From positions 1 to 20,989 of the IMG/VR virus record IMGVR_UViG_3300031251_000376: DNA of 20,989 bases. One strand, written 5' to 3'. Position 1 is the stretch's first letter. Each line of letters opens with the position of its first letter. Positions 13,761 to 17,330 of this stretch are shown here, one piece after another. The notes under the pieces are model-generated. The model had not been told where the DNA came from. It made no database searches and saw only the letters and a program-made list of their open reading frames with translations. Source of the stretch: a virus. The translations under genes and the position numbers were made by a program.

Positions 13761-13836
13761 TGGTGGACAATGTCGGCTCTGCCCCGACCGCCTCCGCATT
13801 GCAAATGCGGCGCTCTCCTGACTGAGCTAATCGCCC
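13761..13836 (-). tRNA. tRNA-Ala(UGC) with aberrant T-loop
   Basis: Acceptor GGGCGAT/ATTGTCC with the G3-U70 wobble that marks Ala tRNA, anticodon loop TTTGCAA in CCGCA/TGCGG, standard D-arm, CCA encoded. The T stem GTCGG/CCGAC is perfect, but its loop reads GGCAGAG instead of the near-universal TTCRANY. It could be non-functional or unusually folded. Confidence 0.8.
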
Positions 13837-14375: not shown

Positions 14376-14451
14376 TGGTGGGTCGCCAGCGACTTGAACG
14401 CTGAACTTGCTCCTTAAAAGGGAGAAATGTTGCCGCTAACACCTGCAACCC
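14376..14451 (-). tRNA. tRNA-Lys(UUU)
   Basis: Anticodon loop CTTTTAA, acceptor GGGTTGC/GCGACCC, T-loop TTCAAGT, CCA encoded. Confidence 0.9.
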
Positions 14452-14461
14452 ATCTGGAAAT

Positions 14462-14536
14462 TGGTGGACTGAGTGGGATTCGAACCCACACCTAACCGAG
14501 TAAGAGTCGGTAATGCAACCGTAACACCTTCGGTCC
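14462..14536 (-). tRNA. tRNA-Lys(CUU)
   Basis: Anticodon loop CTCTTAC in ACCGA/TCGGT, T-loop TTCGAAT, CCA encoded. The acceptor GGACCGA/TCAGTCC has a C5-A68 mismatch. Confidence 0.9.
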
Positions 14537-14544
14537 ACTGAAAA

Positions 14545-14769
14545 TTAATAGTCGCCGTCGTCATCGCCCCAGAAAAACAGGAACCACTGGTCGGCTGTGT
14601 CTAACTGCTCTTTCAAATCTGCTGGCTTGTCGCGCTCGCGTTGGTGTGTTCTGTCTCCAATGCAACGAGTACAACGCCCGTGGTTTCTACAAGAGCGAAC
14701 AAACCTTGCCGCTCCGCGATATGGCTCACGCCATTCTTTTCCGCTCTCTATTGCTTTTTCCAAACTCAT
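14545..14769 (-). CDS. Small Cys-containing hypothetical phage protein
   Basis: Read from ATG 14769 this is a 74-residue protein, MSLEKAIESGKEWREPYRGA, then ARFVRSCRNHGRCTRCIGDR and a very acidic C-terminus (FFWGDDDGDY). The CRNHGRCTRC part (Cys27, Cys33, Cys36 and His30) looks like a small metal site. The lead SLEKAI..GKE.R.PY.G and SCRNHG resemble short proteins common in phages, of unknown role. An earlier in-frame ATG at 14817 exists, but the later one has AGGG at a better distance. Its 5' end overlaps the HNH gene by 44 nt in another frame. Confidence 0.68.
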   Translation of the reverse strand: MSLEKAIESGKEWREPYRGAARFVRSCRNHGRCTRCIGDRTHQRERDKPADLKEQLDTADQWFLFFWGDDDGDY

Positions 14770-15037: not shown

Positions 15038-15405
15038 AATGTATTGGTTGCGCTGTAGCCCGGCTTCTGTTCCACTTTCGTGGCGACATTCATTCGTCTA
15101 AGCCCCCACCCGACTCTCATCGTGGTAGACACCACTCAAGTCCTACTTGGGGTTGCATCTGGTGTGGAGTGCCCGACTTTGAATGATGTCGGCGTTCGAT
15201 GACATTATGAAATGTCGCCGTTCGCTTACATGGTCGGCCTTACCCGTACTCTTGCGAGTCCCGCAACTTCCACGGCACCTTGTCTAATGATGGCCGGAAC
15301 TTCCTCCAGCCTTGCGGCCAGCGAATGTCCGAACAACCAAACTAATTGCTCTAACCTGTGGCGCGATCCGACCCGAAGGTCCGCGAGATATGGTATCGAG
15401 CAAAC
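15038..15405 (-). other. Non-coding 368-nt spacer with many hairpins
   Basis: No convincing gene or tRNA. Stems include ACACCA/TGGTGT enclosing CAAGT-CCT-ACTTG, GACATT-ATGA-AATGTC inside a GGC/GCC clamp near 15192-15224, ACTC-TTGC-GAGT, and GGCCG/CGGCC near 15291-15320. The minus-strand frame that crosses it runs into the Cys tRNA and is not accepted as a gene. It could be an untranslated RNA processed from the array. Confidence 0.35.
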
Positions 15406-15912: not shown

Positions 15913-15988
15913 TGGAGTCATCGGAGAGATTCGAACTCTCTAAACCCGCCTTAGAAGTGCGGTACCCGTCCGTTCGAGAATCGACGAC
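15913..15988 (-). tRNA. tRNA-Arg(UCU)
   Basis: Anticodon loop CTTCTAA, acceptor GTCGTCG/CGATGAC, T-loop TTCGAAT, CCA encoded. Confidence 0.92.
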
Positions 15989-16084
15989 TCAGAAATTCTT
16001 TGTTCTTCTTCTCTGTGGCAATTGGCACACAGTAAAATGCACTTGCTTACTTGTTAGGGCACCCCTATCCTTGATGCATCAAAT

Positions 16085-16169
16085 TGGTACCCCGTGAGAG
16101 ATTTGAACTCCCATGGCTGTTAACCGACGCGTTCTAAGCGCGTTGTGTCTGCCGTTCCACCAACAGGGC
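16085..16169 (-). tRNA. tRNA-Leu(UAG)
   Basis: Class II tRNA: anticodon loop CTTAGAA in ACGCG/CGCGT, 14-base variable arm, acceptor GCCCTGT/ACGGGGT, A73, CCA encoded. Confidence 0.92.
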
Positions 16170-16845
16170 ACAGAAAATTTAATCCAGATATTTCTATTCA
16201 CACGCCTCTGGTTTACACGGCACGGTATCATCGTGGTCCCTTTCGGGGCACGAGACCCACGTCCGTGGGGGCGCTTCATCTGCCAAGCGAGCAATGCTCA
16301 AGCGAGGACTTAAATCCGGGCGTCATATTTAGAGACCGACGCCCTAACGGTCTGATAGTCACCTGCCCCAAACCAGCGCGCGAGGCAATCAGGATTCCGG
16401 GTCCTGTGTGACTGGGGATACCATCCCCGCGAGGGAGCTACCCTCTTTTTCCCCATTTTAACGTCTGGGGTCTGACAACCAGTTTTATTATAGAGGATTT
16501 CTACCTCTGCATGTTTAAGGACACTGCGCGTCCGGCGTTTTTAGAAGGGCCAGCTTCATGGGGCATGTTTACGACTTCCCACTGTCGGCCATTTAAGGAC
16601 TTGGCTGGGTCCATCAATCGACATGCGTGGCCCCGCCTTAGCGAAGCGCGCTGTGCTCGAAAAGTCAAGCGAGCCGATTGTCGCCCGTTATTAGAAACGG
16701 GGCCGAAACTTATTGGTCAGCGTTCTCCGAGGTGCTACACGGCACGGGGCCGTCGCTTCGTCCACTGATGCTTTACCAAACTTTCTCTGTGCCGTCTTTA
16801 CTCGGGCCTCAATGAGGACTTATCGAGAATGTTGGCACAGAAACT
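16170..16845 (-). ncRNA. Candidate large structured RNA inside tRNA array
   Basis: About 675 nt without a credible gene or tRNA but dense in stems. Seen directly: CCAGA/TCTGG (16194-16211), CCCAC-GTCC-GTGGG (16256-16269), GAGC/GCTC, GGGCGTC/GACGCCC (16318-16344) overlapping AGACC/GGTCT as an H-type pseudoknot, CAGGA/TCCTG (16389-16405), GGGGA/TCCCC (16414-16428), GAGGG/CCCTC, CCCCA/TGGGG, AGAGG/CCTCT, CCCGTT/AACGGG (16684-16701), ACGGC/GCCGT (16739-16753), and an 8-bp helix TCTGTGCC/GGCACAGA (16786-16841) that encloses two nested stems and abuts the next tRNA. Phages are known to carry large ornate RNAs (GOLLD, ROOL) next to tRNA genes, and size and place fit. Identity with either is not shown. 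Confidence 0.45.
16431..16450 (+). terminator. Plus-strand intrinsic terminator-like hairpin
   Basis: GAGGG-AGCTA-CCCTC is followed at once by TTTTT on the plus strand, the shape of an intrinsic terminator for plus-strand transcription. No plus-strand gene is seen upstream, so it may block antisense transcription or simply be a stem of the minus-strand RNA. Confidence 0.35.
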
Positions 16846-16924
16846 TGGTCGGGGAAACTGGATTCGAACCAGTGTGCTCTCGGTTCCAAACCGAGCGGAA
16901 TAAGCCAGACTCTCCTATTCCCCG
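16846..16924 (-). tRNA. tRNA-Pro(UGG)
   Basis: Anticodon loop TTTGGAA in CTCGG/CCGAG, acceptor CGGGGAA/TTCCCCG perfect, T-loop TTCGAAT, CCA encoded. Confidence 0.93.
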
Positions 16925-16965
16925 TTGGTGAAGGCAGTGCATCTCTGCACCCCTTCATAGAAACT
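16925..16965 (-). other. Long hairpin between the two Pro tRNAs
   Basis: TGAAGG pairs with CCTTCA and, inside, GTGCA-TCTC-TGCAC pairs on, giving an 11-bp two-part hairpin. Probably a processing or spacing element. Confidence 0.4.
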
Positions 16966-17044
16966 TGGTCGAGGAAGCTGGATTCGAACCAGCGTTCTCT
17001 TCTTTCCGAAAGAAGCGGGAACGGCCAGACTTCCCTACTCCTCG
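16966..17044 (-). tRNA. tRNA-Pro(CGG)
   Basis: Anticodon loop TTCGGAA in CTTCT/AGAAG, acceptor CGAGGAG/TTCCTCG, T-loop TTCGAAT, CCA encoded. Similar in body to Pro(UGG), a likely local duplication. Confidence 0.93.
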
Positions 17045-17172
17045 ACTGAAACTTTTAGGTGCCCATGATTAACGACCTTTGGGTCTTAGTAGCCGGAACG
17101 GTCAAGCGGCTCAACCTTGAAACCATGTTACCGAACCTTTGAAACTTTGTCAAGCACTTTCTTTAAAAATCT

Positions 17173-17247
17173 TGGGGAGAAGAACGGGGGTCGAACCCGT
17201 GCTGCCGGATTCACAGTCCAGCGTGCTACCACTACACCATCGACTCC
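17173..17247 (-). tRNA. tRNA-His(GUG)
   Basis: Anticodon loop CTGTGAA, T-loop TTCGACC, CCA encoded. It has the His-specific extra G at -1 opposite C73. The acceptor GAGTCGA/TCTTCTC has mismatches T4-T69 and C5-T68. First tRNA in the direction of transcription. The spacer 17045-17172 downstream holds AGCCG/CGGCT and GACC/GGTC stems but no gene. Confidence 0.88.
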
Positions 17248-17296
17248 ACTGAAAACAGAATATCAGAAGGGCGGACGGCTGTCAAGAGAAAACTGA

Positions 17297-17330
17297 TGGG
17301 CGGTAAGGGGATCGGACCCTACACCGCCCA
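17297..17330 (-). other. tRNA-like minihelix (acceptor stem plus T-arm only)
   Basis: Reading the minus strand, a TGGGCGGT/ACCGCCCA helix encloses an AGGG/CCCT hairpin whose loop region TCCGATC is close to a T-loop. The D and anticodon arms are absent. The sequence after it (TCAGTTTTC) resembles the trailer that follows the CCA of other tRNAs here. It looks like a tRNA deletion remnant or a deliberate leader hairpin. Confidence 0.4.

Follow-up and report, generated by a model that had tools for sequence, protein, structure and literature searches.

The question raised by this locus is what occupies the 676 nt that separate two tRNA genes in the tRNA array of a tailed phage. The DNA analysed is an IMG/VR fragment of 20,989 bases, which at its full length is referred to here as the window. 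It encodes an SU10-like portal protein and a large terminase, and carries 30 tRNA genes identified by ARAGORN on the minus strand, from 17246 down to 11011; one more tRNA at 13764-13836 (minus strand), scoring 46.8 bits with Rfam, is unlisted by ARAGORN. The block (16170-16845, minus strand) is abutted exactly by the ARAGORN genes for tRNA-Pro(UGG) upstream (16846-16924) and tRNA-Leu(UAG) downstream (16085-16169), both also on the minus strand. The initial annotation had described this interval as gene-free and as a candidate large structured RNA, either of the GOLLD/ROOL class or new. No convincing gene was found in the block, whose open reading frames encode only 55-88 aa and lie in conflicting frames. 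A conserved reading frame, which had been named as a sign against an RNA, is likewise absent across the homologous gaps of related phages, because these gaps range from 146 to 676 nt.

None of the known RNA families tested accounts for the block. A cmscan of positions 15950-17300 against 4227 Rfam families (E ≤ 5) gave nothing within it, and returned the four flanking tRNAs together with two weak matches overlapping those tRNAs. Rfam scans of the relatives, at gathering and at permissive thresholds, yielded no family for the conserved core described below. Among cultured phages, blastn found no match to the block and, with the core of the relative L114, noise only. The nearest cultured terminase is that of Tunturiibacter phage Tunturi_3 (25% identity), in which no tRNA is annotated in the genome parts inspected. 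Based on these searches, we take the core RNA to be a family previously unlisted in Rfam. The folding-energy z-score of the block is -3.3 on the minus and -2.3 on the plus strand; for isolated cores it is about -1, and core folding energy does not discriminate the strands. As a sign of structure, the folding energy of the block alone is only suggestive.

The evidence for structure comes from the relatives. A portal-protein search recovered 80 loci in viral contigs, and the tRNA arrays of the larger records are located upstream of the terminase gene and have a largely conserved order: His, Pro, (Asp/Asn), Pro, gap, Leu(UAG), Arg, Arg, Leu, Leu, Cys, gap, Lys. With the block as query, blastn matched the Pro-Leu(UAG) gap in four records. 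Compared side by side, the gaps contain a common core (e.g. GATGTTGCAACAGAGAGT..CCGGGTAGCTCCCG..GTGGCCTCGTCGACTGGTAAGGGGC..ACTCTCGGTG..CACCC..GCGCG..GGCG..CGCGCGTTGATAAATRCCGCCCGGATTT), which in most relatives, as in the window, occupies the slot after Pro and before Leu(UAG). In three of them (L113, L127 and L130) the gap measures 146-157 nt and holds the core and hardly anything more. In the Leu(UAG) gap of L128 and L135, HNH-endonuclease-like frames were seen by eye beside the core or in its place.

A covariance model, R1, trained on 13 cores with the window left out, detects 17 non-identical copies in 17 records at E ≤ 1e-11; two additional contigs duplicate copies already known, and L109, L120 and L219 carry diverged copies that score 14 bits. 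A degenerate 22-nt pattern of one of the core hairpins, hairpin C (GCSTCGYNNRCTGGTWWGGSGC), has 12 matches in 2.9 million viral contigs, 11 of which are core RNA. The pattern matches in the viral contigs L148 and L200, and those of a stricter version in four bacterial genome contigs (L222-L225), were attributed to chance, as their model scores are weak or partial and no tRNA array was present where inspected. With these set aside, no core copy is known outside the phage group, and within the collections searched the family seems to be confined to one group of large tailed phages.

In the 17 copies the conserved core, of about 145 nt, comprises a three-way junction on stem A, a hairpin and an H-type pseudoknot. 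In the alignment of these copies 93.7% of cells are paired, and 23 of the 33 pairs have changed on both sides, in 105 cells. When partners were slid by 1-3 columns, only 29-50% of cells paired, with 10-24 double-change cells, and shuffles gave 27.5 such cells. The alignment used for these counts had been fitted to the nested structure of the model, but not to pseudoknot stem S2 or to the palindromes (see below). S2, lying outside the aligning model, has 96.3% of its cells paired and four of five pairs changed on both sides; its natural versions include GGCGA/UCGCC, GGAAC/GUUCC, GGUGG/CCACC, GGGAC/GUCCC, CCCGG/CCGGG and CUCGG/CCGAG, and the window has GGGCGUC/GACGCCC. Stem S1 covaries in the relatives as well. 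A hand-made table, for which the stems were selected by eye, contains 13 distinct sequence pairs for stem A, and an equivalent stem is present in 18 of 18 relatives. RNAalifold, run on a plain MAFFT alignment, found the same nested stems unaided. In stem C, 15 of 17 copies contain a U-G pair, which would be A-C on the opposite strand, and the minus (tRNA-sense) strand is therefore supported. The initial annotation had proposed looking for covariation among homologues, and in the core within the block it is massive. We regard this comparative evidence as decisive for a structured core.

The copy of the core in the window, recognized with R1 in the slot used by the relatives, is diverged and extends from stem A to the 3' strand of the pseudoknot at 16318-16481; this and all features of the block described below are on the minus strand. 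The 5' strand of stem A (UGGUUGUCA, 16473-16481) forms eight of nine pairs with its 3' strand (UGACUAUCA, 16353-16361), as read from the sequence and the hand table. Within it lie a copy-specific hairpin visible in the sequence, CCCC-AGACGUUAAAAU-GGGG (16451-16470), which is not found in short cores, and hairpin B, GAGGG-UAGCU-CCCUC (16431-16445, conserved GGGUAGCUCCC), placed by the R1 match and the hand table. These are followed by an insertion (16391-16428) of two hairpins, 16414-16428 and 16391-16405, which in the alignment with relatives belongs to the window copy only, and by hairpin C, GCCUC-GCGCGC-UGGUUU-GGGGC (16365-16386), an exact match to the 22-nt pattern. The pseudoknot consists of S1 (16333-16353), in which AGACC (16349-16353) pairs with GGUCU (16333-16337), and S2 (16318-16344), in which GGGCGUC (16338-16344) pairs with GACGCCC (16318-16324) across the linker CUAAAUAU; both stems covary in the relatives. 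This is the H-type pseudoknot that the initial annotation had picked out from the window alone; it is present at 16318-16353 and corresponds to the conserved pseudoknot of the family. The window has thus kept stem A, hairpins B and C, a longer, 7-bp pseudoknot and the CCCGGATTTAAGTCC tail, has lost hairpin D and a palindrome in front of stem A, and has gained the two-hairpin insertion.

Further modules flank the core. The 3' module (16170-16310) is composed of a hairpin and then a second predicted pseudoknot, in which GCGCC (16270-16274) pairs with GGCGU (16202-16206) and CCAGA (16207-16211) with UCUGG (16184-16188). It is shared with L218 (79% identity over about 125 nt, E 3e-24) and with L114, where the stem CCAGA/UCUGG is replaced by GCCGA/UCGGC. 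The 5' module (16496-16845) adds 350 nt to the core and is partly homologous to L111, through two short stretches (E 6e-6 and 1e-3); L111 in turn matches L109/L120. The description of the RNA as large is accurate for the 676 nt of the window, but the conserved unit measures only about 145 nt. Size is a trait of the 5' and 3' modules added in the window copy, because the slot of some relatives holds hardly more than the core. The 8-bp helix TCTGTGCC/GGCACAGA, taken initially to close the tRNA-Pro end, exists (16834-16841 with 16786-16793), but what it closes is a hairpin of some 56 nt beside tRNA-Pro and not the block. The GGAY...RTCC hairpins noted as recurring at 16389-16405, 16519-16533 and 16597-16612 are correctly placed, but they are not a conserved feature of the family; they are 4-bp stems of little meaning individually, the last of which has a compensated counterpart, GGCC/GGCC, in L111.

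Some additional observations concern these flanking parts. Hairpin loops of the form rGuCnUUAAAnAU recur in the window (16560-16610 and 16451-16470), L111 and L219, and are perhaps a docking motif. A pairing of the CUUAAAU loops of the window with the AUUUAAG tail was considered but not adopted, since the segments are A/U-rich and the pairing is not kept in relatives. A further module shared 5' of the core, GTGGAGCCGTTAGGTTAATCCAC... ...CTAACGG...CGCCTACCACA, resembles a structured RNA and was found in L114 (6951-7185, minus strand), L126 (3163-3311) and the gap of L124.

The match between R1 and the window is the best one in 7.1 kb, at the correct place and on the correct strand, with 18.9 bits (E 3.4e-4); across 609 kb it scores 18.7 bits (E 0.035), and a second model, R2, gives 16.4 bits. 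A junk locus selected by pattern reaches 16.3 bits. With so low a score, and a junk locus this close to it, the assignment of the window copy rests on its place and motifs. The low score is also what speaks for the view that only the relatives have the RNA and that the block is an ordinary spacer whose stems arose by chance. We find this highly improbable, as such a spacer would have to contain the exact 22-nt hairpin C pattern, an intact 7-bp pseudoknot, a 3' module common to L218 at E 3e-24 and a 5' module partly common to L111. On place, pattern and modules together, we consider the block to be a diverged, enlarged member of the family, for which the score alone would be unconvincing.

The loop of hairpin C suggests how the RNA might associate. 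Its 5'-side six or eight bases form a self-complementary sequence in the window and in 16 of 18 relatives, and seven different palindromes occur: GUCGAC, GUGCAC, GCUAGC, GCAUGC, GCGCGC, CCUAGG and CUCAUGAG. Treated as self-pairs, these bases pair in 95.8% of cells, with a covariation score of 0.775 versus at most 0.147 when slid. On the portal-protein tree the palindrome requires at least 11 changes, a count that recombination of the arrays could inflate. L128 and L130 have nearly identical portals and different loop palindromes, and GCGCGC is common to the window and its sister L219; in the window (16376-16381) it is the proposed kissing-dimer contact, the equivalent loop being palindromic in relatives. 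A second palindrome of 8-12 nt, with four different centres, lies in front of stem A in 17 copies and is absent only in the window and L219. Neither contact is universal, since L121/L217 lack the loop palindrome (UCGCUA) and the window/L219 the front one. As adjacent loop bases are unable to pair within one chain, a symmetric kissing-loop homodimer through loop C is the simplest reading of this pattern. A comparable element is the dimerization initiation site of HIV-1, in which kissing homodimers form through six-nt loop palindromes, GCGCGC and GUGCAC; it differs in being an element of a retroviral genomic RNA, and the comparison is an analogy only. Taken together, the comparisons among relatives demonstrate the core family with its fold, pseudoknot and palindrome covariation.

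The same palindromes could instead serve DNA-level or protein binding, as operators or nuclease sites, within a structured RNA that remains monomeric. The front palindrome, located at the tRNA-Pro boundary, is with 8-12 bp of a size typical for a protein-dimer site. On the other hand, the loop hexamer sits exactly within a covarying RNA hairpin loop, in the fixed context C-[hexamer]-UGGU, and a DNA-binding site would conserve its sequence and not its symmetry alone. We consider this alternative unlikely.

The proposed symmetric homodimer also invites comparison with the large ornate RNAs. Like the core RNA, GOLLD (RF02032) is phage-borne and located beside tRNA genes, has conserved and variable parts, and possesses covarying symmetric kissing palindromes (PMC12286853). 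Kretsch et al. argued from palindrome switching at adjacent loop positions for homomeric contacts in both OLE L9.3 and GOLLD L21a (PMC12286853). ROOL (RF03087), which has homomeric kissing loops (PMC12286853), resembles the window copy in size class and in its phage tRNA neighbourhood. The block might then be a remote GOLLD (or ROOL) that has drifted past the Rfam models, the more so as GOLLD likewise has a pseudoknot involving a loop, two loops that kiss themselves, a conserved 3' part and a variable 5' part (PMC12286853). Several results make this very improbable. In 34 records the GOLLD model (E ≤ 10) gave no match at the locus, nor did the ROOL model in 18 records, the latter result being weaker because no control genome gave a ROOL signal either. 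The pseudoknot topologies differ: in the core the S1 loop is joined to the linker downstream of it, and in GOLLD the partner of L22 is J17/22, by name upstream of P22. GOLLD shows no sequence or model similarity to the core, and its conserved unit of about 400-800 nt (a conserved 3' domain of about 400 nt, many members exceeding 800 nt) contrasts with one of about 145 nt that is able to stand alone; cores of 146-157 nt nearly fill the slot by themselves in some relatives. ROOL differs likewise, the core being far smaller and modular. OLE RNA resembles the core in its covarying palindromic loop L9.3 and in the evidence for its dimerization (PMC12286853), but it belongs to extremophilic and anaerobic Gram-positive bacteria and has protein partners (PMC9723947), and no match to it was found here. 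Membership of GOLLD or ROOL, one of the two options of the initial annotation, is rejected because the model tests were negative, including the Rfam scan of the block. Its other option, a new ornate-type structured RNA encoded on the minus strand within a phage tRNA array, agrees with the covarying core, the pseudoknot and the signs of self-association in the relatives. Overall, the earlier interpretation is partly supported.

Another possibility is a locus for a Ro-associated Y RNA, a tRNA mimic, whose 3' module would bind a Ro60-like protein and whose core would be an accessory domain. In L124 (13206-13306), L111 (5314-5413, minus strand) and L122, a permuted tRNA-like module consisting of a T-arm, a closed acceptor hairpin and a D-arm lies directly 3' of the core. 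This arrangement resembles the bacterial Y RNA YrlA (RF02553), with 32.7 bits (E 7.6e-7) in L124 and 23.9 bits in L111; a permuted tmRNA was dropped as an identification of the module of L111 and L124, because YrlA is the better fit and inspection by eye showed no tag frame. TROVE (Ro60-like) proteins are encoded by the relatives G023 (L150, 940-2340, minus strand) and G021 (L151), in open reading frames 487 and 482 aa long, and in G023 the TROVE match and a weak Y-RNA-like match are separated by about 130 bases. However, no match attains the 69-bit gathering score of YrlA, the best value being that of L124, and none of the matches is at the block. The 3' module of the window, a hairpin and a pseudoknot, lacks T- and D-arm sequences, many cores have no tRNA-like module, and the records with clear TROVE genes are without the core. 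We judge a Y RNA locus to be very unlikely. The 21-kb window fragment itself contains no TROVE gene.

As the array adjoins the terminase and portal genes, a packaging RNA of the terminase motor, multimerizing through loop-loop contacts as in phage phi29, was also weighed. The phi29 pRNA multimerizes via two complementary loops, not palindromes; palindromes yield dimers. Moreover, the core is missing from several phages of the group that have the same terminase-portal layout, and this explanation carries hardly any probability.

We therefore return to the structured RNA family with kissing palindromes. That it is unlisted, that the window holds an enlarged, diverged copy, that the RNA is released by tRNA processing and that it forms a kissing homodimer via loop C is, as a joint reading, probable in our estimation. 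The core RNA would be read from the minus strand within the transcript of the tRNA array. A promoter-like site, TTGACA-17-TATTCT with a TG (17257-17285, minus strand), is located directly before tRNA-His, and is the likely start of this transcript, although the evidence is weak (the consensus scan gave two such sites against 0.6 expected). Excision would most likely occur by tRNA processing, the end of tRNA-Pro setting the 5' end of the RNA and an RNase P cut before tRNA-Leu its 3' end. The latter cut may be made with a phage-encoded RNase P RNA, since the phage group apparently has its own. A class A RNase P RNA, the candidate array-processing enzyme, matches RF00010 in the window at 15040-15340 (minus strand) with 102.3 bits (E 1e-30), and at E < 1e-20 the family was detected in 24 of the 33 related records, with four of these matches exceeding the gathering score; in L124 it lies at 14429-14718. 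In the released RNA, stem A would close a three-way junction, the other two arms of which are hairpins B and C, the H-type pseudoknot would come next, and the loop C hexamer would kiss the same loop of a second copy to give a symmetric homodimer. In most relatives the front palindrome could provide a second two-fold contact, with which rings, chains or dihedral cages may be possible. The RNA would most likely form a particle with a structural or protective role during infection and function as GOLLD or ROOL do, a mode that is favoured because setting and likely behaviour match.

A bolder version, which we put forward only tentatively and hold to be rather unlikely, is that with two palindromic contacts the RNA of each phage builds a closed dihedral particle exclusively from its own copies, that palindrome switching prevents mixing between close relatives, and that the phage's own RNase P RNA performs the excision. 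If this were true, palindrome switching would amount to a code for self-recognition at the RNA level. Only a handful of families (OLE, ROOL, GOLLD) are known to form natural multimers of RNA alone. A small RNA of 146 nt, with about 18 divergent natural variants and clear intermolecular covariation, might constitute a tractable model for self-assembling RNAs of phages, and its seven natural palindromes are ready-made tests of specificity. Arrays that combine an RNase P RNA with Y-RNA-like modules further suggest an RNA-processing island owned by the phage.
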